Made by a program: the position numbers and the translations under genes
Source: Ceratodon purpureus
Taxonomy: Eukaryota; Streptophyta; Bryopsida; Pseudoditrichales; Ditrichaceae
Reading direction: 5' to 3'
NCBI GenBank assembly: GCA_014871385.1
Contig: CM026427.1
Span: 17,493,055 to 17,557,054 of the forward strand
DNA: 64,000 bases
Part shown: positions 1 to 25,929 of the stretch, in pieces
Position numbering within the stretch: position 1 is the first letter of the stretch
Layout of the letters: the number at the start of each line of letters is the position of its first letter
The notes under the pieces: generated by a model
The model's input: only the letters and a program-made list of their open reading frames with translations
The model's database searches: none
What the model was told of the DNA's origin: nothing

Positions 1-1295
1 CACACAAAGACACACGACGTTTGGCTTGCTCCCTCATATGCTCTACATCGTCGTCTGTTACATGCTCTACCCTTGATTTCCTCTTTACGTGACTTCGGAA
101 AGGCATGTCAAACGGTTCTCCAGACAGCGGCTGCGTCTCCATGATCTCCTCGCCATCCGATGGAAAAATAAACCTGCAGAAAGCGAGTCTCCACATTCCT
201 TCTCTTTCTTCTCAGATGACCTCGACAACTCCAATGTCTCTTTGCTGGTCCGTTCTTCAATTACTTCCTCTGTTTCTACTTCTTCAATCCTCTGCGATGC
301 CTCAGAATTCCTGGGACATATGCTTCAGAACCCACTGCACCAACATTAGCTTCCATTGTACCTCCTCTCAGGTCTAAAAACATGAAACACGTCTCCGGGA
401 GTAGATTCCTGCTCTGCATTGAATACTATGAATAGCTATATATCCGAGGTTAAAAATGGATCGGAAGGTGTCCCTGCTATAGCTGCATGCACCAAAGGTC
501 CCTGAAAACTCATTGACAACTTGAGATGCGCATACTGTTAGAGATAAAAAGTCACTCACAATCAGATCCACGTATGAAGTGGATAACAGGATTGGCCGAT
601 TTGTTTTCTTACAAAAGATTTTACTATCACTTTTCACACTTAACCACACAAACTAAACAGTAGACTGTTTAAAAGCAACATCAACAGTGTGAGTTCTACT
701 CCGCTATGAAAGATACTTCAACGGAGCACACCTTTCCAAAGTTCTCCGGATTGTGATCATGCCAAAAAAAACAGTGACTGCTGTAGCAAACTCTAACTGA
801 GTTAGTGTTTCAGTCAGAGTACCATAACTTCCAACAGTTCCACACCAAGTCTTCTATGTCTTTGCTGAAGAAACATTCCGAAAAAAAAAAAAAAACCAAA
901 AAAAAAAGAGAGAATTTCGAGATTAACAGTACTCAGTTCTTCGACGTCGTCATGAAGACTGGGGTGTTACTCTCCCTAGGTATCAACCTAGAATATATGA
1001 GCAAGGTATCACTCTAACATCCAACTTCTACCATCCGATCACTGCACCCAGTAGTAAAGAACGTCGCACTGTCTTGACACGACGATGGGTGTTACTATGC
1101 TTCTGATAGAGCCGGTGCGAATAGAACCCTGCAATCAGTACAATAAGATTGTTATGTCAGATAGTTCAATCTGAAAAACATTTCATTGAATGCATACTAC
1201 ACATTAGCTTTTCCACGACTTTTTTTATCAAACAGTGACGAGTGTAATATGTATCAGTAACTAAACCTTTCTCCATCACTTACTTCGTCATTGAT
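1..1295. other. Non-coding left part of CACTA-1
   Basis: No open frame here looks like a real gene. The stretch has an A-run near 880-907 and one copy of a repeated 37-bp motif (1193-1229). It is assigned to CACTA-1 only because it lies beyond the 3' side of the transposase with no visible element end. Confidence 0.4.
1193..1229 (+). repeat. 37-bp direct repeat inside CACTA-1, copy 1
   Basis: The segment containing TACTACACATTAGCTTTT followed by CCACGACTTTTTTTATC recurs almost unchanged at 6324-6360, in the same orientation. The copies differ by about a base in a T-run and one base near the start. Copy 2 falls in the intron between transposase exons 2 and 3. The function is unknown. Confidence 0.8.
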
Positions 1296-2166
1296 TTAGT
1301 CCTTTGTTGATTTCTCCTTCCCTTTCCCCTTACGGATATTATCTTCATCCTCTTTTGTGTCAGATGATTTTTCCTTCCCTTTCCCTTTGTGGATTTTATC
1401 TTCATTGTCATCTTCGGCGTCGATGTCTTCTTCTTCTCCCTCCTCCACTTGTACGGGTGCTTCGGATATTTTCTCGGCGTACAACTGGACTCCTACATCA
1501 GGTGAAGGGGCTCTGGCATTTGGTTTCTTAACTCCAGGCGAAGGATTGTAAGGCATACCATCTCCACCCGCTTTCATTTCCTCGTACCCCCGTCTCAGTG
1601 GATGATAATGAAACGGACATGTACAAATGTCTGCTATCGACTTGCCCTTGTATCCTGCAATCTCTGAGTCGCCGTCAAAGCTCACGTTCAGTGCGGCACC
1701 TACATTGACTGGCTCCGTAACTTCCACTACGATACCTTGGTTCTTTCGGCCAATTGGTTGAACGGTTTCTCTCGCCCTCCGCAATGATGTTTGGTGCAGG
1801 AACGACTACCACATTTTTGTTTTCCTCCTCGTTCTGAGCGTCATTCTCATCTTTTTTTCCTTCCTCGGCTATTTCTTCTGGGATATCATGCATGTTCGGG
1901 AAATGGTTTGCTGGAACCATAATCTCCTGACGGTCCACGCAGTCTGGAAGGAAAAGGATGGTATATCAGTGCCGAAGAATAATAAAGTATAACACCGCAG
2001 CAAAAGAATTAGAAATCTGACAGCACAATTTTCCAAAGCATGGGAACTGGGAGAGCATAATGCACGAACACAATTACTTACCAAGTGAACCATCGGCCCA
2101 CTTCCCTGTTGATGATCCGGACTCCATTGTGCCCTTCGCTCGCTCCATGCCTCCGTCGCCGTTCAT
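1296..2166 (-). CDS. Acidic hypothetical protein in the left arm of CACTA-1
   Basis: I do not recognise this protein. A plausible first exon starts at ATG 2166 and ends at a GTAAG donor (exon end 2082). The next exon begins after CCTTCCAG at 1943, and the phase is kept across the junction. The second exon is strongly acidic (runs of E and D) and passes residues such as VPANHFPNMHDIPEE. Near 1790 the coding signal moves to another frame, which reads to a stop at 1296 and ends in two lysine-rich KGKGKEK repeats separated by an acidic spacer. Either a frameshift lies near 1790 or these are two exons with an intron I cannot place. It lies downstream of, and in the same direction as, the transposase, so it could be a third element gene or extra 3' exons of the transposase. 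Confidence 0.4.
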
Positions 2167-4158
2167 GATCTCTCGGCTCCCAGACTGCGGAACAGCGACA
2201 ACATAAACCATTAGAACAACCTCGGAGACTGGGGGTCCACACTGGAGATCATTCCCAAAATAACAAAACAGACAGTAGAATTCACATACAATCACAAGTT
2301 AGAGATGTTAGAAAGTAAACCTACAACGTGAAACTACGCGGTTGTGAACTTGGACATAATACACAGACTTTCAGGTCGACAATGTAAACAAACATGCATG
2401 CGTGAGTTTTTCGCAAACATCAGTTGCAGAGGCAATGACATGTGGTAATCATCTGCGTCTCTAAGGGTAAGTGTAGCCAAAACACTGGAAAAAACCTCAG
2501 TTGTACCTTTGACATAGTGCGGAAGAGCGTAAGATCGAGAAACAAGCAAGAAGAACACCGAAACAATGCGAGCACGCCGCCAGCTGCGAAGAACTACTCT
2601 GAGAAGCTCTCCACCGAAAACAGAATCCCATTCCCGGAGAGAAGAGCTCGATGTAAAAGCTGAGCACATGTTGAGATCTACGAAAATCATAGCGACTGAG
2701 AAGATGATGGATAAAACTCGGAAATTATGTACAAATGGGTGACATCCTCATGGCGGCTTCGACTCAGGTCTACAACTGTTAAAGATCCCAGGGGAATGTA
2801 CCTAGCAATGAAGATATACAGGGGCAACCACATACAATGAATACCACGCCTTGGAAGACAAGACAGGTTAATCAGAACCTATGCAGACGACAAGACAAGG
2901 CCACAACGTAGGCCACTGAGCATGCCCCCTCCCTTCGCTCATCTTCACTCCTGTCACATTTTAATTGATTTAGTCTGGATTATGTTTCACAGATAAGATG
3001 AATGAAATTTCTTGAGTGTCTCATTCTCTGTTCTTCAATTATCACTCTATTTTCTTTGAGGAAGGTGACACACCGATAAATGTATATCGGACTGGTTATG
3101 AGCAGAACTTCCATTCTCTGCATACAAGGACTTCAATTTATTTATTTTTTCAAATTTTTATTTCAATATGTTTTTAGAACATTCAGAGTCGGTACTGAGA
3201 TCTGGAAGTAGGTGATAGCTTCATTTGTGAATTATCTTAAGCTGTAGTTCAAAAGAAATTGAGTTTACATTTTAAAAATTCTTCATTAAACACGCAGTGA
3301 ATATTTCCCCTACGAATCCAAATCCATTTACGGTCACTACTTAGATAAAACCAATATGTGGCTGCCAACATTCTACTGAAAGCTAAGATTAAATAGTTTG
3401 TGAACCCAAATGCAAAACATACATAACTAAGTCGACTTATAACTCCATAACAGTACTAGTGTAATACCCTTTTCTGATGGTTAGGAGGACCCATACTTAC
3501 ATGGAGATGGTTGTAATACAAAATGAAAACTGAGTGTGGAATAAGAGAAACATACTAGCAACAGTAACTTCTACGATTATAAAGACCTCGGCTCCAAGTA
3601 CTTTTCCTTTCAGGCTATACCTCTGACTTACTGTAAGCCCTGTCAATGCTATTTAATGTTTAATTTTCTGTGATTACAAATAGAACGCATTTGAAAGTTT
3701 AATCGCATCATCAATTGCTTGTCAATTTAACTTGTCCAAATTAAACAGCAGAATTGTACACAGAGGATACTTGGAATACAGAGCAATCGTTTTAATTCAC
3801 AACAGTTCGTGAAAACAGAACATTTTATGTTCATAGTGTATTAATGCATTTTATTACAGATGACTGTTCCTGTCTTAGACTTCAGAGTGCAGGGACTCTA
3901 TGGCAACATTTACTTCAATAATCTGAATTAGAAATACAGGAACCTCTATGTCAGCGAATACCATATATCCAAAATCACTGCGAAATACAAGAGAAGTGCA
4001 TACAAACTATGACAGTTGTACTTTTCAACGATTATTGAATGTTCACATTTTCCGAAAAAAAATAAACACACCGTCGTCTATGTGAAAAAAATCAAGGTGG
4101 TCGATTCGGGTAGCGGTTATTGAGAACATACCTGTGATTCCCTGTGTCGACATGGACT
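2167..4158. other. Non-coding spacer of CACTA-1
   Basis: There is nothing protein-like on either strand beyond short chance frames. The sequence is moderately AT-rich. It separates the transposase stop (4159) from the acidic gene (2166) and may contain the transposase 3' end and the promoter of that gene. Confidence 0.4.
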
Positions 4159-7100
4159 CTACGCCCTTTTTCTCTTTTTCCCCACAACTCGATTTGATTT
4201 CTTCTCTCTTCCATTCCCGACAACTCGTCTTTGCAAACTTTGTAACGCTATCGCATTGTCTGTATCATTGAGTATGATAGCTCCGGTCAGGTCCGGCACC
4301 ACAGTTTGACATAGTGACTCATTGCTTGGTAAAACACCCCCTGCAGCACCGTCCGTGGACATAAAAAACTCGTCACCTTCTTCAACTTTACGCCTCGATC
4401 GGGCCTCCTTCTTCAATACTACTTTCCACGTAGATCCTGGAGGACGTAGATCATCTGTAGCAAAGAAAACCTGAGTGCACTGTGATGGAAAGACGTACGG
4501 ATCAACGGATTTGGGGATGTTGTGCTTAAAATTGACAACAAGGAAACCATCGTTATCACGGACATATGTACTGTTGTTTCGATTGTCCACATGTTTTTTC
4601 CAAGTGCAAGAAAAAACAATCACTGGTGTTTTCAGTTCACCGTAGTTTGGCACCAATATGTCTTGGAGCACTCCAACATAATCTTGGCCAATCCCACATG
4701 ATTCCTTGTTTGATTCGAAACAAGCCACACCGCTGTCGAAGTTTGGCATACACCTGGAGGTGGTATCATCCACTCTCCAATGGTTGCCGTATGCGGTCAT
4801 CTTGGCATATCTTTTGCAATACAGAGACGGGGGGTTCGACAACAACAACAAGTCTGACTCATTGGGGTCATCCATGTCGAGATGCATTGCATGGATGGTC
4901 TGTTGGATCCAAACTTCCAGAGGAGTACTTGGTCCTCCCGTCTGTTCCACCTCCGATTCCCATTGACTGTACACGCTCCACCTCATACATGTCAGTATTT
5001 TACGAGGAGAACGAGTGACAGGGAGACAGAGCATTGGAGACCACAGACGGATATGGTGAAAAACAATCAGAGTATTTCGCAGCGTCTGGTGTCCACATGG
5101 AGAGCAACGGATATCAGAATGAACTCATGCGCAGAACAATATAGCGCTGGGGAAGAGTTTATAAAGTACCTGTAAAGAGTCGCGGTCAGTGTACTATTTC
5201 TTAAAACAAATTTGTGAAGTGCATCTCTTTCCGATCTTGAAAGGATAACGTCTACCGCGGCTCCCTCCAACACTTCGTACTCTTCGCAGTCCTCGGGATC
5301 TTCATCCCAAATTCTTCTTCTCACCGCCTCATAGCCGTGCATATATGATGTTGCATATCCCATTGTCTCCTCAAGTGAATAGCCCTGTGCAATCGATGCC
5401 TCGGGCCGTGCCCTATTTTTAACGTGGTTTTTTAGCATCATCATAGTTCGTTCAATTGGATACATCCAACGAACCTGGGTGGGGCCTAATATAATCAACT
5501 CGTCAACTAAATGCAATGGTAAATGCGTCATAACATCAAAAAAGGTGATAGGAAACGTTATCTCTAGCAAGCATAACGTCACGGCAACGTCCTCCCGCAA
5601 ATCATCTGCCTGTGCAGGATCCCAGACCTTGCAACATAATCTGCGAAAGATTCTACAAGCCCTCATAATGGACATTCTGGTTTTCGGTTCCATCAAGCCC
5701 CTCAACGCAAGCGGGATTAGAGTCTGGATCAAAATGTGGTAATCATGCGATTTGAGAGCACTAAACTTTTTGGAGCGAATGTAGCTGCCAATCTCCGAGC
5801 AGTAACCAGAGGGTACCTTTATATTCTCCAACCTCGTGCAGAACACGTCGAACTCCTTGGGAGTCAAAACATAGTTTGCAACCGGCTTTAGCATCCTGGC
5901 TGGATTCCTCGGGTCCCTTACCATCCACAAGTGCGGGTGAACGCCTTCCCTTTCCATGTCCCTCCTCACCTTCACGCTATCTTTTTCTTTGAAACCAGTA
6001 ATAGTCTTCAACAGATTTTCGGCAAAATTTTTTTCACAATGCATTATGTCCAACGAATTCCTGATTTCCAGATGCTGCACAGAGGAGAAATAAGTGTAGT
6101 TAAAACATGAGTCCGAAGTTCAAAGGACCAAACATGTCAAGATAGTATAATACCAAAAAAATGAAAAAAGCATGTCTAATTTTTAGACGACATAACTTTT
6201 CATCGATTACTCTTTCAACGAACCCATTCCAGTACCACGCCTAATATGTACACGACAATGCATTGTTCCAGCAACCATGAGTAATGTTTTCCTAGTCCTC
6301 ATGTTTCGTTTTCCACAAGTATGTATACTACACATTAGCTTTCCACGACTTTTTTTTATCTATGTCCTCTAAAAACGTGTATTACTGTGAGCGTTCTGCA
6401 AGCTATTGTCACCACTGGCTGCTTACAAAATCAGGTTTATCAGGGAGTTCATACTCTGCCTTCCACTACAGAGTACGAACACATTACGAGGTTGACAACA
6501 TCCGTGACCATATATGCTTAAGTGTACAGCAAATTACCATGTTTGAATTAATCTTAGGTTTATTATTCTTATGTTTATTCAAACAGAGACTTACATAACA
6601 TGAAGTTCAACAAACAGTCATCAGAACAAAACATGTGCTTAGAAACATCTACATGCCACAGTGAGTTGATTGTGCCATGTACCTCCCAGTACGGTAACTC
6701 ATAAAAAATACTCCATCTCTTCATTCCATAAGTCTTCGATGGATCCGCTTCTTTTTCCCGCTTTCGATTCGATGCGGCACCATGGAATTGCCTCGGCGCC
6801 CCATTATCTTCATGGTTTGATGTAGAAGCCGCACCTGATTTACTCGTAGATGCCCGACCCCCTTTGCCTCCAGGTCGCTTTCTTTTTCTAGTATGAGTGC
6901 TGTTCTCAGATTCGCCATGCATTTCGTCTGGCGCAGAGGCTCTGTCGTGTTGTGTCCCTGGTTCAGCGAACATGTGCACACACTTACATGTCTAGCCGCT
7001 ACAAAGGAGCACACAAGTGCATTTACATGAAATTAGATCATATTCAGGAAGGGTAGGCTGACAATTACCTTGATTCGATAAGTAAGCTTGGTACTTCTGG

Positions 7101-8908
7101 AAAGCAGCTCTTTGATCCGCAGGTGACTTCGTAACAGGTCTACTTCTATGTTCAGAGCGTCCACCAAATAATCTATCGAACTGGTGTGACCGTAGGGTAT
7201 GATGAGGAGGTAACCATCTGCGGGAGTCTCGGTAAATAATTTTGCGGCTCTCATAGGCGTACGTACCGCGGAGCTGATCTCCACAGGGAGGACAGGCAGT
7301 GTATCCCTGGTGAGCAGCGCCTGAAACAGTGCCGTATCCTGGGAAGTCGTGAGTAGTGTAAAGAATAGCTGCTCTTAAATTGCATATACGTTCACCTTCA
7401 GGCTTGCATACATCATACGCTGGTACTCCTCTCCATAGAGTCTTCATCTCCTCTATCAATGGTCTAATCCACACATCAAAGTACTGAAAAGGTACCTGCG
7501 ATCTGCCAGGAATCAACAAAGCTAGAAGGGTAAAAAACTTCTTTGTAATTAGCCATGGTGGCAAATTCAGAATCGTTGCAATAACGGGCCATGCAGACCA
7601 GCTGGACTTGTGTTGTTTAAAGGGACAAATACCATCGCACGATATTTGTAGTCTCAAGTCTGTGTCATTAGCTCCAAATCCCATAGTGTCGAACACCTCC
7701 GGGTCCAAAGTATCCAGTCTCTTCCAAGCTACTGAATCTGCAGGGTACCTTACTTTGCCATCTTTACTTTCGTTTTCCTTGTGCCAACGAAGAAGCTTAG
7801 ACAGCGCTGGGATTCTGAGAAACCTCTGTAGCCTGGGTGTGACAGGGAAAAACCTCAGTACCTTCAAAGGCCGCGTTCTGTGGAACATGTCTCGATATCT
7901 AGGTGAGTTACACACAGGACACCGGTCCAGGTTTTTCTTCGCTTCATCATCAAATAGAACGCATCCAGTTGGACATCCGTCAATGTTCCTGAAGCCCAAC
8001 CCTAAACGGTTGGTGAGAGTCTTTGCCTGGTACAATGAACCCGGTAACTGGTTCTCAGAAGGGAGTAGTGTTTTAATCGTTGCAAAGATATCATCAGCTG
8101 CCTTGTTGGTAATTCCCGGATGTGTAGCCACTAAGTTAACAACCATCACTGTCGCTCCCAGTTTTGTTGTAGTGGAGCCATTGTACAGCAACCTCATGGC
8201 ATCCTCGAGTGCTCGTGCATCTTGCGCTCGCTCATTCTCAAGACGTTCATTAGTTTTACCGTTTTGACACGGCTCATCAGTGTGGGAACGATCGTCATCA
8301 TTGGTCCTATGATCTCTATTGTCACCACAGTCATCGGGTACGTTGCCCCCTTCATCTCTAACTCCTTCCTCCCCTATCACCCCTGACTCACAGCCCGCCA
8401 CTCCCACTGGTGTATGACAATCCGCTGTATTGTTTCCCGGATCATCTTGGTTAATGCCTGTGATATCGTCACTTGCTTGCATAGCTGTCATCGCAATCCG
8501 ATTAATTGTTTCCTCTGTGGCCGCTGCTTCCTCCACCTGCTGATACATCTCTTGCAACATGTTTCGCATCTCCAATCCATTATCGCGTTCACGTATGATT
8601 GTCGATGCTTGTGCAATCTTCGCAGTATAATCCTGTTCCCACTCGTCATCAGAAGAGTCCGGTTCCTGTGGCCCTCTCCAAGTTCGGCAGTCTGGAGATC
8701 GGCCAAATCGTATCAAATGTCTTTCAACTTCTGTAATACTGATAGGGCGCCCAGTCCCTCGGTGATGCAAGCATGGGCATGGTATCCTTGGAAATCCGTA
8801 TTGCAATGCCCGTTGTTTGTCTCGCAACCAGAGTTTGTTATCTCTTTCTCTGACCCTCCGGTGATCAGAAATCGGTAACTTTTCAGACATCCTGATAAGA
8901 GTGGTCAT
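4159..8908 (-). CDS. CACTA-1 transposase, TNP2 (Transposase_21) type, 4 exons, about 1,280 aa
   Basis: Inferred exons are 8908-7069, 6957-6683, 6074-5170 and 4981-4159; all phases agree and no internal stop appears. Residues 35-70 hold a Transpos_assoc-like segment (CPCLHH). A middle CPVC cluster and the block around PGRSQVPFQYFD and HDFPGYGTVSG match the Transposase_21 core. Exon 3 carries DUF4218 (LDIMHCEKNF, KSHDYHILIQ). Exon 4 carries DUF4216 (YVGVLQDIL, WKVVLKK) and ends in a basic KKRKRA tail. This is the order seen in plant TNP2-family transposases, which cut and paste CACTA elements. An alternative start Met is at 8890. The acceptor of exon 4 is the least certain junction. Length and openness suggest a functional protein, but activity is not shown. 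Confidence 0.88.
6324..6360 (+). repeat. 37-bp direct repeat inside CACTA-1, copy 2
   Basis: This is the near-identical partner of the segment at 1193-1229. It sits in the 609-bp intron between transposase exons 2 and 3. The spacing of about 5.1 kb rules out a simple tandem array. Confidence 0.8.
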
Positions 8909-10347
8909 TAAGGAATTAGTCCTTCAGGTTTTGCATGAACAAAGAAGAAGTCACTGAATAGTTTCTCCCGGTTGTGTGGAAACTATTGCAGATGTCAGCA
9001 AATCACGTTACAGAGAAACAATTGCTTTCAATGCAGCACCCAATACATCGTAATAATAGAATGAATATTACAAGAAGAGATTGTATGATTTAAGTAAGCA
9101 GACAGCCAAATGTAATATATCTTTATACGGGGGGTTCGATCATCACTTTACCTTGCAGCAGTATGGTCTTCTGGAAGTTGTATCCCCCGATGTTGATTAC
9201 ATATCTCCCGAGTCGCACCTCCCTTACAGTGACACAAATTGTCGTCTTACATGTTCCTTCAGTGCCGGAACGACAAAAGTTAAAGGATGTGGAACTAAAG
9301 TGTGCAAAGAAACATACAGTGTACATGATAAACTTTCAAAATCTGATGTAAAAGCGCGATGTGACCGTGATAAGAGGAGCTGAATGGAAATTATTAGGAC
9401 TGTCACAACCCAAGTGCAACTCAGACATTTGCATCGACCATAAACTGGTATAAACCCTAAGTGCACAATCGATTTATAATCAAATGGACAAAAAGGGAAC
9501 GTGTATCTCTGTCGTTTAGTACAATACACTACAGCACAGGGTAGTGGATGGGCAATCAATTCAATGTTTTAAACAATAGACTGATTCTACACGATTACAA
9601 ACTGCAAGGACGTAATGCAGGAAGCAAGTGATAGCGGATACCTAAAATCTGTGGTTGATCTCCACTGCAACAACGCACTCCTTCTTGTTGACTGTATCGC
9701 GTGTCTGCATGAATGAAACGGACAGAACTCGCATTAGTTGCAGGTGTAATGTGAACTATCAGAATACGCTATAATAGAGGATACGAAGGGACAAATTCAT
9801 AGAAGGGGCATAGATCGTGAACATTTACGACCAGATTGGAGAATACAGACCACAAGTGATGTTGTCTAAGATGCCGCTATTGAGATCGAGTGAGTATTTT
9901 TCATCGTAGATAATCATCCCATAAACATTCCCGCAAATGTTAAAATCAGAAAATGATCAGATGTATGCGAATTAAAAGGACGATCTCTTCTCTCGAAAGC
10001 AAATTCGAGATGCAAGAATGGTAGATGAAGAGATAGAACTTAAGCAGTATCGGTTTTCCTTCCTCTCAGGATAACGCAAACTCTCGGTTCTGAAAAATGG
10101 AAAAGTTTCTAATTCCACTGTCACATAACTAACGGTTGTTCAAGAGTCTACAACGCTGAACATACCTTTGGTCGAAAAGGAAGTTGAAACGGTGAGCGAC
10201 AGAGCTTGTAATCATCTCCTCCGAAACCCCTATCTGGTGCTCCGCTCAATTACGCAGATATCTTGCTACACTTCGTGAATTCTCCTTCCTGAATGAACCT
10301 AGACGTTGTCGACTCCAGCCAAGAGAGAGGATTCTGACGCTGTAGAG
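8909..10347. promoter_or_regulatory. Divergent 5' region between the two CACTA-1 genes
   Basis: This 1.4-kb gap lies between the start codons of the transposase (minus) and the accessory gene (plus), so it must hold both promoters and 5' leaders. No convincing gene is present; a 100-codon frame at 9081-9383 has no recognisable features. I see no clear TATA box or operator array. Confidence 0.45.
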
Positions 10348-13300
10348 ATGTCACGGAAGAGAGTTATTGATGATCACGATGAAGAGGGTTTTGATGAAAT
10401 CGAAACGGAGGAGAACGAGGGCATTACGAACGAGTACGAGCTTCAGCGAGCAGCGAGAGTTGCAAGCAACAATGCATACCTTCAGTCATGTCTTGCTGCT
10501 GCTGATGCATTGTAAGTGTCTTTTATACCCTAAACCCTAGAGCTCCCGTGTGTCTTACCGTCGATACGTGCCACGTGTCCATTTGAGCGGGTGAGATTCA
10601 CTGAGTGAAGGGGACATTGTCTTCTGAAGTTTGCCGGGAGATGAGAGTCATCTTTGCGAGTCTTGGCGTTCTACCGTGGAGAGGTATACCCTCATTTAAT
10701 TACTACTCTTGTTTTTTTAGCAATTCTGACATAGGAGAGAAGCGACAAAAGCTTTCGAGGTGCCGGAACTCTGGTCGAGGAGGACCAGAACGCAGGAGTG
10801 AGCGCCTGGGAAAGTTAAATGTAATTGCGGAACGCAGACTTCCATATCCTTCGAATGCTGATGACAACGATGGCGAAGATGATACAAACAACCGAGGCAG
10901 CTCCGGCGACGGAGACCCATCAGGTAACATTATGGAATGTTAATGTTTGAACTCTGTGTTTACCTCGTTTTATCTGTTCCGGTCGGACTTTCAGTGTAAT
11001 TTTCGCAAGGCAACGTATTTAGGTGAAATAGACCAGACTCCGATCTCCGGGAATTAATCTTTTATTCGCCGGTGTTAAATATAGGTACTGTTTTGAACAT
11101 CTATATTGTTGTCGAAGATGTTCTGAACCCTATTCAATCCCGCTCTTTAGTTCCTTCAAGTTTTTGTCTTATACAATCAACGTAATTTCAATTGAGTGCC
11201 AAGCCGAGAGACATTTGTGGCAGTCATGTCCCGGTAATTTATTTGATGGGTTATGCCAAGCGGATCATTAAATTCATCTAATTTATACAGATTACAGCGA
11301 GAGAGACTTGCCATCAGACGCATCGGAGGATACGTCTCGCGAAGGTGATGAAAACAGATGCGTGAAGAAAACAGTGACGAAATCTAGGGTTTCTCAACCC
11401 AAAAAAGTACCGGCTCGTAAGGATGTCAACGACGCGCACGAGGATCATGCATCAGGAAAGGCCTTCTTCCACCCTCCTGGAGGAGCAGGGAGTAGTAGGT
11501 TACCATCGTCATCGTCAAATCCGAACCCTATGCCGACGCGCTTTGCTTGGGTACCTATTCCACAGGACCACCCGGGGGTTGAGTACTTCAACGTCACAGA
11601 TGCGGCTCCACAGGGGGGTTTCCCCGGAAATTGGCAATTTCATCCCACGTCGAATGTTCCAAGACCTGTTCAGAGTGAGACATTGTTAAGCACAGAGAAA
11701 AGTACTGCTTCTTTATCAACGTCGATTAAAGAGGAGTCTTTGAAACGGAGGGAACGGAGAGCTCACAAAAGGGAAGCAGAGGAGGCAGCAAGGAGAAGAG
11801 AGAGTAATGGACTGAAACCCTTTGTAGTACAAGTCAAACCATTAGGAGTTATCGACAGCAGTTGCGATGGCCATCTCAAATGGCAGGAATACATTCGAGA
11901 TATGACTCCTCGATTCCTCGACATGAGCATTATCAGGTATGAGGAACAAAATGAACGCTCGAAAGAAAAGCTTCGTGACGATGTGCGTAATAAATTTGAG
12001 TTTGTAGGGAACGAGATGACAGATGGATTCATGGACAAAATAATAAAGACGTGGCTAAGGAAGGACCGAGAACGTGCGAAGAGAATTCATGGTGGAAAAA
12101 CCGCTGCTCCTTTGAGGTATAGCGACAAAGAGTGGGATGGATTGAATAAGCACTGGGGCCTTCCTTCTACAAAATCGCAATCAGAGAAAATGGCGGAGAA
12201 GAGACAGAAGGTTCAGCTCAACCCTAGAGTGGGGCGGCTGGGTTATGCAGGAAAGGCAACCAAACTGGTGGGTACTTCAATTTACTTACATTCAATGGAT
12301 GTCTAGGACACAATCCATTTAGACTGTTAGGAATCTACGGTATAGAGACAGAACATTATAGTGTATTCTCAAATCACATCTAGAAAAGAGTGACTTTTTT
12401 TGGCTGCTTATGTATCACAGGAGAAAGACCAAGAACATGCTTCCGGGATGGTTGATGTTTCAGAGGAGTTTCGGAAAGGACTTGAAAATCCCAACAGCGT
12501 TGTAAGTACAGGATCCTACAATTTTATTGACACTGCCCGATATTGTCGTCTTTGTTACATGTAGTTATGGATCCGTTACTCAGTGTTCGTCTCCATGATG
12601 TTATATATGATTTAAGTGTGCAGAAAGAAAAGTACACGGTTTGAACTGAACCTTAAACAATGTACTCATGTTCATGCAATTTATTACGTTCGTTTGACCT
12701 TAACCAATGTAAGTTTGTAGGGACATGTCTCCTGATAAGATTTATTTTTAGATGCTTCAAATGTTGTTGTGAGGTACGTACTGAATGAGATGACCTGATT
12801 ATATGACAAAATGTTTACCTTGAAAAAAAACAGGCAATGGAAAAGAAGAATTCACAAAGGCTGACTGCAACGGAGAAGAGTCTTGCGGAAACAAACCGAA
12901 GGCTAGATGAAGTCCTACAGGGCAACAAGGACTTGCAGTCAATGCTACAGTCTGTACTAAGTAATTTAGTTCAATCTAATGCTGTTGAAAATGTGAGTTT
13001 GCCTCGCACAGGAAGCACTGCTGTTGGAGATACATCTGGCACGGCACAGAACCAGCAGCGTGGGCACATGGTCGATAATTCAAGGGGCCACGCCTCCAGT
13101 GAGCAATGGTGGGATGATCTGTGTGAAAACTCGGATGAGGAGCAACCAAAGAACGAGAGACGTAGGATTACACCAAAAACATTTCTGAATGCAGATGACC
13201 AGGTTAGTGAATGTTGACCTATTATTCCCCTTATAAGTTTCATTAGCATTGTATACATCGACTGTTTTTGTCTTCATTTAAAAGTTTTTGTTTCACAGAA

Positions 13301-15119
13301 CAATCAGTTACCTTCCTCTGTAACGTAAAGACTAATATTCATGGATTTTTGAAAGCTGTTCTCCATGCTTGTGTAGGTCAAACGGAACTGTGTGTCCTTA
13401 ACGTCCTAATATATTATGCAGATTTTGATCAAACCATGAAAAACGTATGTGTATTGCGATTATTTTGAAGTGATCACTCACTGATTAATATTTTGGTGCT
13501 TCTTATTAATATCTCATTATTGATTGCTCTGAAGACATCCTTTAAGGTAGAAGAGTAATAAAATGTTAGACTATGTTATTTAGAGTATGACAAGTGAATT
13601 TCTAGACTACTATTTTCTTAGTATAAGAGAAACAGTCTCACATGATGCGTCAAGCCACTAACATGTGATACTCTCAGGAACGACCTGTTGTCAACCGTAC
13701 TGCATCACCCAAGAGACGGGGGAAAACTACAGATGTCAAGGTAGTATTGCAACAATGTCTTGGCCCAAACATTTCTGCTCTTTTAGTCCGGTAATTCGTA
13801 CTAGTCGTCTTGTGATAATCGTTGATCTTTCTTTTACGAGATGAACGTTGAAGTTATGAATGATGATCTGTTCGCCTTCTCTACAATTCGATACTTAGAG
13901 TGAAAGAGATATACTGATGTTATTTGTCTCCTTTAATGTTCATCAGTAGGGACCTCTGTACTACATGTGCAGGAGTGGATCGCCGTTGAGGTGTTGGGTA
14001 GAAATTTTGATATGGTGCAGATCTCTAATTTATTGTAAATAGTTTATGATCTTGATGTAATTCACAAGCATTAAAGTGAATACAGAGAATAATGTCGATT
14101 CTATTTCAAGGTATCTAATGTCTTCATTGGGAACGCAGGGAGCTCAACATCCGGAACACAGTCCGGGAAAGAATAAAAATACCAAGGTGAGGGATCATCC
14201 AATTTCATATGATACTATCTAGAAATTCGATTCCCTTTATATTTGCCTTACGTTTATAGTAGACGGATAAGGTACAAAACTTAGAAAACATCTGTGTCGG
14301 ATCTGATTATACTGTGTACGGTGCTGATGTTGAGTAAGAAACGTGTAATTCGAATAGTCGTTTTTAAATGAATTTGACTGTTTTTTTTACGATGTAAAAA
14401 TGATTCCGTGACAAATAGTGCAAAATTACATTTAGAGCGCTATGATAGTTAGAGGATCAGTGAGCAGTATATCCTCACGAGGTCACTATAGTAAAACGTT
14501 ATACATTGTTAAACTAAATTGTAATGAATAAATGCTGACCAGGTGTTCAATGATATACTCATGAAGATTCATAAGCTATACGTAATGATGCTAGCACAGT
14601 TTGAGTAAGTGTGGCCTCATTCAAGAGCGATTATAACCTCCGTGATATTTACGTTGTGTTTTATTTAAAAAACTAACTCAAATGATGACTATGTGTAGGC
14701 AGAAAAGAATGCTACATGCGAATTTGAATCTTCAACATGTCTGGAGGGAGAGGTAATCACGTATTTGAACGATCAATGCTATTCTATAGTTCAGATTAGT
14801 ATTGAAATATCAGTTCCATGAGCATTCACACATCTGTGTTATGCTGCAACTGCAGTTTCAAATTGGAGACATTGTGTGGCTAGCGGATACATCGAACAGG
14901 GCTTCTCGAGTGGCATCCGGAAGTGTGAATGCACTAGGAGGGACTGGGGTTTTTCATCATCGACCCATTCCACCTCAGTTTCTCCGTGTGAACTTACATT
15001 CTGTAGCTGTGAATGTTCCCCTACTTGTACCGGTGGAAGAGGCAGAGCAACAGAATCTGAATGACGCGTTGGGTTCAAGTGTTCTCTGGCCGAAGGCCTT
15101 AACGTTTCTCCAAAAATGA
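10348..15119 (+). CDS. CACTA-1 accessory (TNPA/TNP1-like, Transposase_24-type) protein, 9 exons, about 740 aa
   Basis: Inferred exons are 10348-10511, 10721-10923, 11291-12267, 12421-12501, 12834-13202, 13678-13740, 14139-14186, 14699-14752 and 14856-15119. All phases match, giving about 740 residues without a stop. Exon 3 has an Arg/Lys/Glu-rich helix (KRRERRAHKREAEEAARR). It is followed by a block with KWQEYIRDMTPRF, KTWLRKDRER and the K..S.K motif near its end, as in plant En/Spm Transposase_24 proteins. Exon 5 is predicted coiled coil (LAETNRRLDEVLQGNKDL). Exon 9 (IGDIVWLADT ... SSVLWPKAL) resembles the TNP1-type C-terminal domain. In En/Spm the accessory protein binds the subterminal repeats; that role here is inferred. 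The first in-frame ATG of exon 1 (10348) was chosen. The four short exons 4 and 6-8 are set by splice phase only. Confidence 0.8.
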
Positions 15120-16009
15120 TGAGTTGTCGACTCATGCGTTTCAAGATGTTGTATATAAACCTACGCGGTGGCGGATGAGGAGAACTCTTAGTTGCAGGAA
15201 CACGGCAGGAGAAGAGGACCTGGAGAAAGTTGGGAAGTTCATGAGGTCAGAAAAATAGATGTATGAAGCTTCAGTTTTTTTTTTTAAAGTTTTGCAATGT
15301 TGTATTACTTATTCTCCATGCCGAGTGCATACCTCATTGTACAAAAAGCTTGCAGAAAATGCAATTGCTTCTTCATGCATAATGAAACAGTGGTATTCAC
15401 TGCGTTTTGGCATTATACAAGCTTTTGCTTTAAGTTAATCACGGGATTGACACGTGGAACATATCAGCGCTCATAAATTACGAAATAAAATATGTAATTG
15501 CCCGGTTGCTTATTTTCTCTGGAGGCCCATGCGTGGGCTACAAGTGTCAACTCAGGAGAGGCCATAGATAAAAACAAAACAATTTGGAACAGCGCATGTG
15601 AACGCGGAATCATTGACACGTTGAGCTGTAGGTTCCGAATAACTCGGCATTGCAACTCAAAATCATGCTCCACGCGGACATGTATTGTCTGTGATAGTTC
15701 CCGAAGTAAACATCGCAGGAATGTTGATGTGGAGAACATTACCAGTCCGGAAGTTAATATGCGCATGAGAGAAGAAGAAACTCTGAAATGTACGAAGATA
15801 AATGTATACGTAGTGGTCATCGATGAACATGTAGTTCCTCCGGAAAGGGCATTTACTGAACAGGTGAATTCGGTCCTGAATGACAAAGGACGGAGAATGA
15901 CCCGTCCACGAAGACGCAGGGGCTACTGGTCATTTCTTGGCACGTCCGTCTCGAATGACTCGAACTGTGGTCACTAATTTCGTCATTTAAGACGGAATTC
16001 CTACTAGTG
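15120..16009. other. Right arm and terminus of CACTA-1
   Basis: This stretch lies between the accessory gene stop and the inferred element end. A 159-codon plus-strand frame (15498-15977) overlaps it but shows no family features and runs nearly to the terminus, so I treat it as chance. The last 150 bp have several GACG/CGTC-containing words typical of CACTA subterminal DNA. The end itself reads CTACTAGTG. Confidence 0.5.
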
Positions 16010-16117: not shown

Positions 16118-18317
16118 CACTAGAGGAAAACCGACGCTTAGGGGACGTTAAAACGCGTCAAAGATGACACGCGCCCAGACTATACGAAATTAGTGTGGAA
16201 ATGTGGTCCAATATGACGTAGTGGATGTCATGTAGGTTTAACGTGCGAATGTCACAATTGACGCGGCTTTGACGCGAAATAAATTTACGTCACCTTGGAT
16301 GTTACGAGTGACGTAGTAGCGTCAAGAGAGACAGAGAAGGTAGATTGGTACGTGTGGAAAAGTAACTTTTTCAAGGGATTTTTTACCTTGCAGTGATTTT
16401 CAAATGGCTAAGCCTTGGTAATATCTAAAGTCAGAACGTCACTTTTAACATAGATGGGTGTCACGGATGTGTTTCTATGTTAAGATGTGTTAAAAGTGAC
16501 ATTATTAGAAATCCAACATGGAATGCGTTTCTAATGTGTTCCACTCACGTGGAAGCTATGGTTGACATGGACTCTAGGGTTTGATCTGGTCAACATCTCG
16601 GGGGGGTGTCAATAGTGACGCGTTTGTTTCCAATGACATCAAAACGCGTCACATATGTGTTTCAAGAAATACATGATATCAGTTGACGTGTCACATGTCG
16701 CATAAGCTACGGCTGACGTGGCGTCTAGGGTTTGACCTAGTCAACATCCTAGGGGTGTCAATAGTGACGCGCACGTTTCCAGTGACACAAAAATGCGTCA
16801 AATATGTGTTTCAAGAAACATATTGAATCAGCTGACATGTCACGTGTGCGGAAACATCCATCCATGAAGGTCTTAGATTAGGGCTTTGAGCCTTGGTAGG
16901 GTTAGGGTAAGCCGCCACTTCGGCGGCTTCTTATCTTGTATTTGAGAGCTTGTTTTCAAGCTTTTTGTGTTTTTTTCCTACTCCATGGAGTGTCTCTCAT
17001 TGTTTTCCCTATCAGTTCCTTGTTTCTTGTCCAAGTAACATGAGATTTGACAAGATTGTAGATTTCTTGTAGTGCTTTCCAATGGTAGTAAGCACGTCCA
17101 ATTCCGAGTTACAAGGAGTGAGATATTGCTTCCCAAAGGTGGGGTTGTCAAAGGAGTGCGGCTGGAGGAAGGGTCTCGGATTTTTAGCGATCAGTCCTAG
17201 GATTTTTATTGTCTACTTCTGAGATTTTGAGGGTAGATGCACAATCAACTCAGCTTTCCAAAAAGCTAAGGCACGCCTTAATCCAAGCTAGGATGGAGTA
17301 ACGGCGACCTGTAAGCTGAAAGGTACTTCAATAAAATCTGGGGGGGGGGGGGGGGGTTCTCCTAACTTTATTCTTGTTCTCCATCTTCTTCTTGCCTCCA
17401 TTCCTCCTTTGTTCCTTTCTTTACGTGATCTTGTTCCATTAACTTCCTTGTGATCAAATGCCACCTAAATCTTCACTCAAGTTTGATTGAATGATGTGTT
17501 GCTATGAACTCACTGTGAGCACAATGATGTGGGTTGTGTAGATTAAGAAGGATCCAGCATGAGCATCCCCTTACGTTACGTCATCCTACGTCTAAAGACG
17601 TTTTCCGAAACGCGTTAAACTATGTGACATATGTGTTTATCAGCGTCAAGTTGAACACTACATTGTGTTTCTTTTTACACAAAATTCAAATTGAATGCAT
17701 CAAATGGTTGACGTGGCAAACATCATCCTACGTCTCCGTAAACGCGTTAAAATAAGTGACGCATGTGTTTATCAGCGTCAAACAGTGTCAAAGTTAACGT
17801 CTGGGACGCATCTGTCAAACAACCTCAAAAAAGCGTCAAAACTGACGTCCATGACGTACTTCCAAAAAACCCCACTACGTCAAAAGTAACAGAAAATAAC
17901 GTCACTTTTAACAAGCCGCATCGCACATATACGCCTAATCCACGATCATGCCACGTGTCAGCATATGAGCCGTTGAAAATCCGATCGCCATGTCAGAATC
18001 TTTTGCCACTTCAGCAAATTTTTCATCCATGACGTGGTATCCACCGTGTCTCCCGCGAAACCGGAAAACGCCCACGTGGCAATAAAGTTACTCTCCAAGT
18101 TACTGACCGCAGGTAAATTCACGAAACAGTGTCGCGTCAACGAGCGTCAAAGGAATGAGGCTGATGACGCTCCATGACGCGACACGTCAAGATTGATTTG
18201 ACTCTCCAGACGCAGAGGCACTTTTTTGCGTCAAAAAAAAAAATGCGTTAAAACGCGTTAAATGCTCTTAAAAAACGCGTCAAAACGCGTCACCAAAATC
18301 CATGTTTTCTTCTAGTG
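16118..18317. mobile_element. Non-autonomous CACTA element, 2,200 bp, with CTA target duplication
   Basis: The left end reads CACTAGAGGAAAAC and the right end, inward, CACTAGAAGAAAAC: 13 of 14 bases agree. The bases directly outside are CTA on both sides (16115-16117 and 18318-18320), the 3-bp duplication expected of CACTA elements. Each arm is packed with GCGTCA/TGACGC words, often as AACGCGTCA next to TATGTGTTT, in direct and inverted orientation. The centre (about 16860-17530) lacks these repeats and holds a perfect 8-bp-stem hairpin (16909-16929) and a run of 17 G. No transposase is encoded. Mobilisation by a related transposase elsewhere is inferred; the termini differ from those of CACTA-1. 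Confidence 0.93.
17340..17356 (+). repeat. Poly-G run of 17 bases
   Basis: An uninterrupted run of 17 G follows AATAAAATCT in the centre of the 2.2-kb CACTA. Such runs are mutable and may be mis-sized by sequencing. Confidence 0.9.
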
Positions 18318-20015: not shown

Positions 20016-20019
20016 TCAC

Positions 20020-23000
20020 CTTAAGAGCTCTGTAGTGTACACCAAATGTCGGAGCACGTAATCGTGGACTTGTGCAATTTCAGAGGCTTGAAGGTAATAC
20101 TGTTTGGCCTTCCTGAGCAATACTTCCCCGGAATCCCTTAGCTCCTGCTCGGGGTCCCATATGCGACGCCGTCTATGGGAATATAAGCTGAAGTACTCCG
20201 TGCAGAACCCAAGCGCCTCATCAATAGCGTATCCAGACGCCATCCCGGCCTCCGGTTTAGAGGTATTGCGGACATAGGAGGTTAGAACGCCCAAGTACCG
20301 CTTGATTCCATAGCACCAACAACTGTGGACTCGTCCGCATTGTATAAGTTCAAGGACCAGATGGATCACTAAGTGGATCATAATGTCCTAGAACCCAGGT
20401 GGGAAATCTAGCTCCATGAGGTACAAAGTTTCCGCTGCAAATGTTTGAAGGGTTGGCATCTCAGCAGGGTTAATGACCTTTGAACATATCCGATGGAATA
20501 AGTCTCCTAGCCTAATGATGGAGAGCCTGGTTCCATGAGAAAGGCTGTTCCTAACAGCAACTGGCATGATCTGCTGAAGCAGACAGTGGTGGTCATGGCC
20601 TTTGAGGCGTGCCAATTTCTGTTCTCCTATGTGCTTAGTGAGGGTTGCACTATATCCTGTAGGCGCTCGCGTCTCCGAAACCAGGTTAATAAACTCTGAC
20701 CTCTCACGTGCTGAGAACACCCACGGAGCAGTTGGCATAATGTAGTCGCCTGCATTGCCATCCTTTTGCAGCCACAGATGCTGAAATTTTCCAGCTTCCT
20801 CCATGTCGCGCCTACCTGCAACCGTGTCTTTTTCCCCCCTGACATGCTTCAGGACGTTGCTGGAGACGTTACGCTCGACATGCATGACGTCCAATGTGTG
20901 GCGAATGGGCAACATCTACACAACAGCCGAGTTTCAGATACCAAGTCAGATAGCATACAAATTATGATCAGTGTATGCATTAGACATGCATACCTGTCAA
21001 GTAGGAAATGAATTCTGATAGTGAGTCCAACGAAGATTACAAAGCATGGAATGAAAGTGCACATAAGATTCAATTACGTCGAATATGATTAAATGAAATG
21101 CAGACTCCATGCATCATAGAAACTGGAATAGAGACTTCATGCACAATAGAAAGCGCTACAGCATGTGTTTCGTCCTTACTCTCCAGAATGGCAGTTGGTA
21201 TAAGCTCGACACCCGTTTTATCACGTATGTCCTTGCCGGGTCAGCGGCTGCAGGAGTTGCTCCATCGGCAACCCAGGCCTCTCTAATAGAGCACCATCTT
21301 ATCACATCTTCGCCAAATACAGGGGGGAGGGGGGGTTCGGAACGTTCCTCGCTAGTCCCAAAGAAGGACATCTGGGATCGCCATGGATGGTCTAGCGGAA
21401 GGTATCGGCGGTATTGGGACTCACAGTACACGTTCTTTTTCAGAGCCTTTGAACGCCGAGAAGTGGTGCACGGTCCATAGGTAGGACATCCTTTGTATCC
21501 TTTTGTGATGCAACCAGCCACCACTCCATACGCCGGGAAGTCATGGATGGTCCACAAAAGGACAGCCCTCATTGTGAACACAGACGATCCTCCAGTACGT
21601 GCAGCGTCATGTGTCTGCACACCATCAACCCAGAGGATGTGAAGCTCCTCTAGCAACGGCTGGAGGTAAATATCAAAAGTGTCCCCCGTTACAGCCTGTC
21701 TACCCGGGATGATCAATGAGAGCATTAAAAAATGCTTCTTCATTGTCATCTAGGGAGGTATTTTGTAATTCAACAATATAACGGGCCAAGTGCTCCACGT
21801 GCTCCGTTTGATGGAGAGCGGATTGACGCCATCCGTCGCCATACCAAGACGGACGTTTTGGTGCTCCTCCTGAAAATCCCCAAGGTTCTCATTGACAAAC
21901 TTCCACTGGGCCGAATCTGCTACATGTCTGATCATTCCATCCTGCGATTTGTTGTTCACGTACCAAGTCATGTATTCAGCTTACTCGGGGGTGCTGAACA
22001 TTCTCTGTAATCGAGGAATGAGGGGAAAATAACGTAGCACTTTTAGTGGAACAAGAGATCAACCTACCTCCTTAAACCGCAGTTCATTGCATTTTGAGCA
22101 TCGGAGCAGGTGTTCATTAGCCTCCCCTCTAAACAGCATGCACCCCCGGGGGCACGCATGTATGAGATCATACTAGAGCCCGAGCATCTTAAGGAGTTTG
22201 GATGCTCCGTACTCGGACGGTGGCAAGCTGTTAACTGTAGGCAACACGCTTCGGCCCAGTATCTAGAAAACCTCGTTTATAAGAACATTACTTGCTCCAT
22301 GAGTCCTCAGAGAATTCAACAAAAGCAACGTGGCCGTCAGTGATGATAAACGTGAGCCGGCGAAAAGCGGAGTTGTCGCACTATCTTGGAGAACCTGCGG
22401 AGCTTCGCCCATACTTGGTAACTCCTCGTTCAAAACACCGAGCAGATCATCGTCTGGGCGGCTGTCCTCTTCGGCCGCATGTTCAATGTCTGGATCATTC
22501 CTAGGAGGCGAGCCCGGCAGGTCTTCTTCATCCACATTCATGTTTTCTCCATGAAGACCGATCCCCACGACTCCAACTTGGGCGACTTCCACATCATAGA
22601 TATGGAAAGCATGCTGAATTGCCTCGACAATGTTAACGTCTTCATCTGCCTGCTCCTCCTCGTTCACCACGTACGCGCGACCTCTCATCCTAAAATTCCG
22701 TAGAATTGCCCTGTCCCATTCGTCGTCCGACTTGTCCGTTGGAAAATTCTGCACACATGTGAACACACACAGGGGATGAGCTGCTTAATACAAACCGTAA
22801 ACACCTAGTCACTAAATTGTACCAAACAATGTCGAGAACCGTTCTGCGAGTAGAAATGAGACTCCTCATTCATCACAATATGCATCAAACTGTATTATAT
22901 AAACAGATACTACAAATCAGAAAAGCAGATAATAAGCTGGAATTGTATCCTCATGTATCAAGTACCAGATAGAAAACACAATACAAATGCTCGCACAGCC

Positions 23001-23409
23001 CAATGTATCTGTGGAATTTCAAGCCTATCATAACTTAGCGATTCTAAAATCATGTGGTACAAAAGCCAAGTGAAGTACTTCAAACCCAACAGTTCGTGTA
23101 AGCAAACATTCCCGTCGAGGCTTATTCAAGTTAGATTGGAGTTGCAACAAAAATAAATTACAAACAACATGCACGTACCTTTGTAGAACCGCGCAGCAGA
23201 GGCAATCTTCCATATTGCTCCAGATGGTACCTCACAACACTTTGTTTCCTCGTTGACCTCACCTCCCCCCTACAGATGTTGCACTTACAAACCCGCACGT
23301 CAGCACCTAATAAATCTGCCAATCTCTCCTCTCTAGCAGCTAGTTTAGCATCTCTTGCGTCTATCCTCCATCGGAGGTGCAACGTCGACTCTCCATACTC
23401 GGGGTCCAT
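20020..23409 (-). pseudogene. Broken TNP2-type transposase of CACTA-2
   Basis: Three exons can be traced: 23409-23179 (Transpos_assoc-like, CKCNICRGEV), 22748-21180 (acidic linker, zinc-like CPRGCMLF and CSKC, then the Transposase_21 core with IIPGRQAVTGDTFDIYLQP and HDFPAYGVVAG) and 20915-20020 (DUF4218, LDVMHVERNV and LKGHDHHCLLQQ). Exon 3 has the same borders and phase as exon 3 of the CACTA-1 transposase. Six in-frame stops interrupt it: 22265-22263, 22175-22173, 22061-22059, 21983-21981, 21752-21750 and 20390-20388. Each could come from CAG, CAA, CGA or TGG by one C-to-T type change on one strand. The DUF4216 exon is absent. The protein cannot be made as it stands. Confidence 0.85.
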
Positions 23410-24009: not shown

Positions 24010-25929
24010 ATGGACAGAGAAGATGGCGAGGATGATTGCTCCTCAGTAGACTCATTTGCAATCGAATGTGCTGGGGTTCCTCAATATCGATATGCTAAAG
24101 CCATCACTCAGCTCTTCCAGCTAGGCGCCAAAATGTAACCCTCCGATCACCCACAACCCTCTGTGCCAATTCAACATCCACAACCCAGGTACGTAATTAA
24201 TCTGCTCTTCTATACAATGTAGGCTACGATATAGAATCTCGATAGTTTGAGCTATGTCATTCCCATGCCACCCGCAGTACTATGCATCACACTGAACCCT
24301 AACACCACATTGAGAGAACAGTACAGGAATTATGCACCATTACCTGTGGTTTAAGGATCACAGAGAGGCGGCGCATACAGGAACATTATATCTGGAGCTG
24401 CAAGAGGAGCGCGCCAACTTGTGTATGTGGTGCCCGATGCAACACCGTCTACTGATGTCCAAGCCCACATCGCGGAGGAGACAAGCCATGGCACCGTCTA
24501 TGACCAATTCGGCCCCCCTGTTCGCCAACCGACCTCCAGTACTCCATCTCGTCCAACAGGTATGGTGCCGCGTCCTTCAAGTACTCCGAGATTGTTGTTA
24601 TCGCTAGATAGAGATGGCGTGAACAAGCGGCGCCGTGAGCAACGCAGCTACGAGCCCGCATTTTTTAAAGAAACAGCGGCTTTCCACGTAAAAGGCCGGA
24701 AACCTAAATATATAATTTCAACAAACGAGCAAGGTCGAATCATTGGATTACGAACTAAGTGGCATTGCACGTGCAAATCAATTGCGCGTTGGCTTGTTAA
24801 TTGGAGCTATATTTCCTATGCGAAACACCAAGGTGAGTGGCAATTGCTCCTATTGACACTACAATGTGAATTAGATAGTATTTACACGTATACTCCTACA
24901 GAGCTTGACCCTGGTTACCTGTCAAAGTATCTCGATGACGCCATTGCACATTGGAAAAGCACATGGCGTCAACATTATTACGAGACCACTTCTCAGCATG
25001 AAGACTGCCCGGATGAGGCGTATGCGGCTTGGCAGCCACATTGGGATAGTGTCAAAGGTCGTATGGAAGCTACTGTCGTGAGACTAGATCGAAGCCAACT
25101 GGAAACAATGGATGTTTTAAAAGACATGAAGGAGATGTTGGCAATGATGGCCAGCAACACGCATAACACCAACCAGGTCAGTAATCGGTTCAAGTCCCCT
25201 GACCTAAACCCTTCAAATTCTCCTTCATTGATTTCTCGAGACCTTTCGACTCCTCTCCCGTCCCCAAATTGCATTGATAAGGCACTTACCCACGACGGTT
25301 TTGGAAATGGTAACACCACCGGAGCGTGGATGCAAAATGGGCCCACTGCGGGGACTTATTCTGCTCCTCCTTCCCCCGGACAGCATGCCTCACCCCCTGT
25401 TGAGCTCCAATCTGACAAGATGCTCACCCCATCCGCTCCTATGGCTTCAAGAAATTCCGAGTACGCTGAAGACGACATTTCTTCAGACCCGGACTTTATG
25501 ACACAGCCTCCAAGTAGATCACTCGCTGCCGCATCACTTCTGTAGCAAGTCCAACAAAGAAGCGAGTCCCGAAGAAGTACCTTAAAGCAAAGCCGAGCAT
25601 TCACCATAGCTTGCAACAAGCCTTGTTGGATTTTGCACCCGGATCACCCAACACTGCCCGTTGCATATGGAAAATCTGGGATTAGCTGGAAATCCAAAAG
25701 CAAGAATTCCCAGTATACACCGTGCGACCATGGGCAACAGATGGTGCAGGTTCATTTCGTGTATGATGCAGACACTCCCCTACTGTTTTGCGAGATGGAG
25801 CGACAACCATTTCGTACCCTGCTTGAAGCCAAGGTACCTCAAGTCGGATCCGGCGTCTATGTTAAGTGGGCGACTCACCTCCTGATCCGCGACAAGGAGT
25901 CCTTCGAGGCTGCCGGTGCTAAACCCTAA
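24010..25929 (+). pseudogene. Broken En/Spm accessory gene of CACTA-2
   Basis: A short first exon starts at ATG 24010 and ends before a GTAACC donor (24134). It is acidic and ends with a helix much like the first exon of the CACTA-1 accessory gene. The main exon, entered somewhere near 24400, reads to 25545. It contains W-rich spacing typical of plant transposase accessory proteins (DAIAHWKSTWRQHYY, AWQPHWDSVKGR) and a Pro/Ser-rich linker. A TAG at 25543-25545 breaks the frame, after which the same frame continues to a natural-looking stop at 25929 with a conserved-looking tail (LHPDHPTLPVAYGKSG, VPQVGSGVYVKW). The tail suggests the TAG arose from CAG. The acceptor of the main exon was not pinned down. 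Confidence 0.65.

Follow-up and report, generated by a model that had tools for sequence, protein, structure and literature searches.

CACTA-1, an element of the En/Spm superfamily about 22.4 kb long, is probably a recently active CACTA transposon whose two mobility proteins would be made from separate, head-to-head transcription units. It lies in a 64,000-nucleotide stretch of the Ceratodon purpureus genome (contig CM026427.1, positions 17,493,055 to 17,557,054; G000:C7:17493055-17557054 in our numbering), which we call the window and which belongs to an assembly of 362 Mb in 151 contigs. A first-pass annotation had described a giant CACTA at 4159-15119, in which transposase and accessory genes diverge from a shared 1.4-kb region. 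The divergence stands: the tnp2-type transposase gene opens with an ATG at 8890 on the minus strand, and the accessory gene with one at 10348 on the plus strand. The shared region is present as well, its limits being corrected from 8909-10347 to 8891-10347 on the strength of the conserved starts, and the element is indeed a CACTA, though one that reaches beyond the annotated interval on either side, the window beginning inside it. When the genome was searched with both CACTA-1 proteins for the orientation and spacing of neighbouring matches, as the annotation had proposed, the matches listed (73 tnp2 rows at 69 loci, 118 accessory rows at 116) gave a divergent nearest partner within 20 kb at 62 of the 69 tnp2 loci, a same-strand or convergent one at none, and no partner at seven.

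The features of CACTA-1 that carry this reading are given below; C1A, C1B, C7D, C11E, C13G, C2F and C1H are other copies in the genome.

1..16009: right portion of CACTA-1; end-to-end alignment with C1A at 99.6% and C1B at 99.4%, with C7D at 94-97%
4159..8890, minus strand: tnp2-type transposase gene, ATG at 8890; splice borders approximate
about 7069-8890, minus strand: tnp2 exon 1 with Transposase_21 (Pfam)
about 5170-6106, minus strand: tnp2 piece with DUF4218 (Pfam)
about 4225-5020, minus strand: tnp2 piece with DUF4216 (Pfam)
8891..10347: gap between the divergent start codons, 1,457 bp; putative promoter region(s)
10348..15119, plus strand: accessory (TnpA/Transposase_24-like) gene, ATG at 10348, stop at 15117-15119
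10348-10512, 11290-12283, 12834-13200 and 14812-15116, plus strand: accessory coding blocks conserved in four diverged copies
15879..15987: five AATGAC sites (15879+, 15896+, 15929-, 15954+, 15982-), putatively bound by an element protein
15991..16009, minus strand: right terminal inverted repeat (TIR) CACTAGTAGGAATTCCGTC, 19 bp, differing at one position from the left TIR of C1A and C1B; reads inward

Element ends, copies and age

The extent of CACTA-1 was established by comparison of copies. In a BLAST comparison of window positions 1-22000 with four related loci, homology in C1A, C1B and C7D stops exactly at 16009, with unrelated flanking sequence beyond each; because three copies with differing flanks agree, the right end of CACTA-1 is placed at 16009. 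The TIR consensus patterns CACTACAAGAAA and CACTATTGGAAA missed this end and were set aside. The element thus occupies 16,009 bp of the window, whose first base corresponds to approximately position 6,397 of the 22.4-kb whole, the left ~6.4 kb lying outside. Full lengths come from C1A (22,420 bp) and C1B (22,406 bp), both of which retain their two TIRs and target-site duplications (TSDs), and the more diverged C11E and C13G measure 18,364 and 18,197 bp. In all four of these copies the TIR is 19 bp long, begins CACTAGTAG and has one mismatch between left and right, and each is flanked by a 3-bp TSD (AGT in C1A, TTT in C1B, AAT in C11E and GTT in C13G).

Pairwise comparison of the window copy, C1A and C1B gave 42 substitutions in 16,005 positions, 35 in 15,979 and 47 in 15,996 (0.22-0.29%), although more than one chromosome is involved, C1A and C1B being on C1 and the window copy on C7; so small a divergence suggests that CACTA-1 has moved recently. 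The accessory frame is broken in C1B and the tnp2 gene of C7D carries stops, so not every copy is intact.

The subterminal regions hold a short repeated motif. In the 230-bp subterminal stretches of C1A, C11E and C13G, six in all, AATGAC occurs 23 times against 0.72 expected, the highest rank among 818 hexamers, and its positions are nearly fixed, with three sites at the left end (two in C13G) and five at the right. A search of the 700-bp ends for longer repeats (8-10-mers) yielded none that was convincing and no repeated 10-mer. The En/Spm protein TNPA binds subterminal repeats (PMC2613891), and by analogy the AATGAC arrays are likely binding sites for the accessory protein. The En-1 repeat described in the same source is longer, at 12 bp.

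The transposase and accessory genes

Three open reading frames (ORFs) on the minus strand carry the Pfam domains of the transposase gene: 8920-6995 matches Transposase_21 (PF02992; E 7.9e-50, 169 bits against a cut-off of 28.6), 6116-5070 matches DUF4218 (E 9.1e-32) and 5121-4162 matches DUF4216 (E 2.5e-8). For the three tnp2 pieces, comparison with C11E, C13G, C2F and C1H gave ratios of nonsynonymous to synonymous substitution rates (dN/dS) of 0.048-0.178, and for the four accessory pieces ratios of 0.139-0.431; these values are rough, since synonymous sites approach saturation in the copies that are further removed, and the DUF4216 piece of C1H holds one stop. C7D, which has few changes and stops in tnp2, was excluded from these ranges (it gave 0.37-0.62, with two accessory pieces not computable). 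As estimated from these alignments, both genes are under purifying selection.

Several comparisons place the accessory protein in a family. In genome-wide searches, 39 of the 150 rows listed for PF03004 (Transposase_24) overlap the 118 rows listed for the window's accessory exon, and two of the overlapping PF03004 rows exceed the cut-off when summed with their in-frame neighbours. In profile comparison the accessory family of CACTA-1 matched four ORFs with over-cut-off PF03004 matches (probability 95.8%, E 7e-9), a further accessory exon named L042 (96.2%, E 2.2e-9) and the pair formed by L041 and the accessory protein of a second element in the window, CACTA-2 (81.6%, E 1.1e-5); the match of this last pair to the four PF03004 ORFs was weak (probability 28%). 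By these profiles and its relatives, the accessory protein is probably a distant relative of the Transposase_24 (TnpA/Ptta) group, and since Transposase_24/Ptta has been linked to tnpA (PMC8195511, PMC2613891), the match argues that the accessory gene is native to CACTA elements. In each of the four copies whose two ends were observed (C1A, C1B, C11E and C13G), the gene falls between the TIRs.

PF03004 matches above the curated cut-off occur in ORFs of 500-600 amino acids at L037-L040 (C2:22369521, C1:4589087, C12:14480558 and C4:10801483), and no tnp2 homologue was detected in the 10 kb around any of these four loci. They may be accessory-only elements or belong to another type of transposon.

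The central gap

The start codons at 8890 and 10348 are conserved in all copies read, and the distance between them measures 1,457 bp both in CACTA-1 itself and in C7D, 1,402 bp in C11E, 1,339 bp in C1H, 1,312 bp in C2F and 1,309 bp in C13G. Gap identity to the window falls from 0.97 in C7D to 0.68 in C11E, 0.535 in C2F and 0.47 in C13G, compared with 0.41-0.44 for shuffled sequence. The length of the gap, as far as these alignments tell, has been kept while its sequence has drifted, a pattern equally compatible with a single promoter and with two.

That the gap is a single bidirectional promoter, coordinating the tnp2 and accessory genes, is possible if rather doubtful. Its conserved length (1.31-1.46 kb) despite a drifting sequence, the two conserved start codons and the retention of the head-to-head layout across families would all suit such a promoter. 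However, a gap of 1.3-1.5 kb has room for two independent promoters, and its sequence is poorly conserved among the diverged copies, whose identity of 47-54% compares with 41-44% after shuffling. No TATA-like site (TATAWA) is common to all six copies; C13G and C1H have none, and in the others their distances from the starts are not shared. In En/Spm, moreover, the two products are made in unequal amounts, the tnpA mRNA being 100 times as abundant as the longer one (PMC2613891); if unequal products are the rule, the benefit of equal coordination is not obvious.

Layout across the genome

Three tnp2 searches, in which the best candidates were scored (69 of 2,445, 150 of 1,940 and 150 of 1,840), and five accessory searches were pooled; among the matches listed, 373 tnp2 rows collapsed to 290 loci and 637 accessory rows to 512. 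All 111 pairs within 10 kb were divergent, and none was same-strand or convergent, whereas 200 random placements of the accessory loci produced a mean of 8.9 pairs at that distance and a maximum of 18. Widening the limit to 20 kb gave 118 divergent, one convergent and two same-strand pairs, with 169 tnp2 loci lacking a partner. The CACTA-1 accessory list taken alone contains two convergent neighbours, one of them the CACTA-2 tnp2 gene beside the CACTA-1 accessory gene in the window; the tnp2 loci of both cases have a nearer divergent partner in the pooled lists.

CACTA-2 repeats the divergent plan, as the first-pass annotation had claimed:

about 20019-23409, minus strand: CACTA-2 tnp2 gene with in-frame stops; 35.6% amino acid identity to CACTA-1 tnp2
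24358..25542, plus strand: CACTA-2 accessory exon, divergent from CACTA-2 tnp2; profile match to the CACTA-1 accessory family

The in-frame stops indicate that this copy has decayed. The CACTA-1 and CACTA-2 accessory proteins have no direct BLAST match and are linked only by profile comparison, and the low identity of the two tnp2 proteins suggests that the divergent layout spans deep branches. For the detected pairs, these comparisons support the annotation's view of the layout as a lineage trait rather than a rearrangement; same-direction copies, which would have spoken for the opposite, are missing from the pairs within 10 kb among the matches listed. Many of the tnp2, accessory and PF03004 matches fall on contig C6 (>109 Mb), possibly a sex chromosome; C. 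purpureus is reported to have a genome of 360 Mb, in which the U and the V chromosome both exceed 100 Mb (PMC8000587).

Several observations weigh against the reading of CACTA-1 as an element with two separate, head-to-head transcription units. No accessory partner lies within 10 kb of 179 of the 290 tnp2 loci among the matches listed, the 111 pairs are non-independent, many being copies of one family, and the one convergent and two same-strand pairs, spaced 12.8-13.7 kb, break the pattern. The window's own accessory exons do not match PF03004 even with E allowed up to 1 and have no Pfam match over the cut-off, and the protein is absent from the 150 PF03004 genome matches listed, its family link running through relatives. 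In the central gap AATGAC is weakly enriched (7 sites against 3.2 expected, uncorrected P 0.043), which does not support autoregulation of the promoter by the accessory protein.

Some of these points would also follow if the uniform layout were an artefact of the searches, one much-copied ancestral family having supplied the best candidates while other families in this genome are arranged in tandem. That only top-scoring tnp2 candidates entered the count, that most of the listed loci are unpaired and that the strongest PF03004 matches have no tnp2 within about 5 kb at the four loci read are all in keeping with it. We nevertheless consider an artefact unlikely, as five accessory queries from different families recovered divergent pairs only, bar the two cross-element neighbours in one list, and the low identity between the CACTA-1 and CACTA-2 transposases places the layout in deep branches. 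That the plus-strand gene is part of another element inserted beside the transposase gene, a notion to which its lack of an over-cut-off Pfam match might lend some colour, is highly improbable and was rejected on the sequence evidence, given its place between the TIRs in C1A, C1B, C11E and C13G, its constant distance to tnp2 in diverged copies, the selection acting on it and its link by profile to Transposase_24, a family known from CACTA elements.

Proposed mechanism

With two native genes transcribed away from each other, the tnp2 protein would cut at the TIRs, and the TnpA-like accessory protein would bind the AATGAC arrays and assemble the ends. Transcription of both genes would start in the central 1.3-1.5-kb gap, so that the ratio of the two proteins would be set by two promoters, or by one shared bidirectional promoter, and not by the alternative splicing of a common transcript. 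Such an arrangement may also keep promoter activity at a distance from the binding sites at the two ends, roughly 6 kb from one and roughly 15 kb from the other.

Other features of the window

The left arm of CACTA-1 contains a third conserved gene:

1..424, extending left of the window, minus strand: third gene, exon a; 58-75% amino acid identity in C11E, C13G and C2F
1323..1979, minus strand: third gene, probable exon b; 25-48% amino acid identity and dN/dS 0.24-0.64 in four copies

Exon a gave dN/dS values of 0.30-0.38 in the same three copies, with one stop in C2F, and by these estimates the gene is under moderate purifying selection. A Pfam scan of the CACTA-1 left-arm proteins returned no match over the cut-off.

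Beyond the right end of CACTA-1, at a distance of 108 bp, lies a 2.2-kb CACTA-like element devoid of long ORFs (16118-18317), with ends CACTAGAGGAAAAC and CACTAGAAGAAAAC, CTA at either flank and GCGTCAAA/AACGCGTC repeats. Further along, ORFs at 39444-39974 and 40765-41319 on the minus strand resemble pieces of a copia-type retrotransposon polyprotein, as judged by eye from their translations.

Comparison with known CACTA systems

By every feature tested (CACTA TIRs, a 3-bp TSD, PF02992 and subterminal repeats), CACTA-1 is a CACTA element, except that it lacks the single-direction unit of angiosperm En/Spm: the two genes are on opposite strands in CACTA-1, in CACTA-2 and in every listed pair within 10 kb. 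The first-pass annotation's premise, that En/Spm products come from one direction and often from one transcript, agrees with published accounts (PMC2613891, PMC8978399, PMC8195511). Maize En/Spm shares with CACTA-1 the CACTA TIR, the 3-bp TSD, subterminal repeats and a tnp2/tnpD-type transposase, and its TnpA-type accessory protein is of the Ptta/PF03004 family, to which that of CACTA-1 is linked by profile and relatives. En/Spm, however, is 8.3 kb long and produces tnpA and tnpD by alternative splicing (PMC2613891), whereas the CACTA-1 genes are on opposite strands, which excludes a common transcript. Soybean Tgmt* (20.5 kb) is likewise very large, with CACTA TIRs, a 3-bp TSD and subterminal repeats; unlike CACTA-1, it is described as one predicted 21-exon gene with tnp2 and TNP1 domains in one direction (PMC2613891). 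The excerpted text on soybean TgmR* gives no gene orientation (PMC4219821).

Chenopodium Jozin and other angiosperm CACTA elements have the same Transposase_21, DUF4218 and DUF4216 domains in the transposase, and in the second product Transposase_24, the family to which the CACTA-1 accessory protein is linked by profile. There, Transposase_24, if present, follows the other three domains in one predicted coding sequence (PMC8978399), whereas in CACTA-1 the Transposase_24-like gene is found upstream of tnp2 and on the opposite strand. The Transposase_21 and Transposase_24 genes also adjoin in the lettuce tnpD-tnpA pair LOC111904991/LOC111904992, for which contiguous tnpD-tnpA transcription has been reported and called essential (PMC8195511); such transcription is impossible for divergent genes. 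We found no description of a divergent CACTA gene plan in the open-access papers searched, Repbase and subscription papers lying outside the scope of the search, and we claim no priority.

What is known of how CACTA elements balance the two proteins comes chiefly from maize En/Spm, in which the ratio is set by splicing of one transcript. On present evidence we lean slightly towards the view that a CACTA branch in this genome abandoned, or never had, a spliced single tnpA-tnpD unit and instead uses two divergent genes served by a central promoter region, in which case the need for a contiguous tnpD-tnpA transcript, as stated for angiosperm elements, would not be general. In the head-to-head lineage, nature would then have provided a test of how far transposition depends on a joint transcript, and the lineage would bear on self-regulation of the promoter by the accessory protein and on the ancestral layout in land plants. 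Since the little-diverged copies suggest recent activity, expression and transposition should be open to direct study. If this view is correct, both the protein ratio and the separation of promoter from terminal arrays would be regulated quite differently from those of En/Spm.

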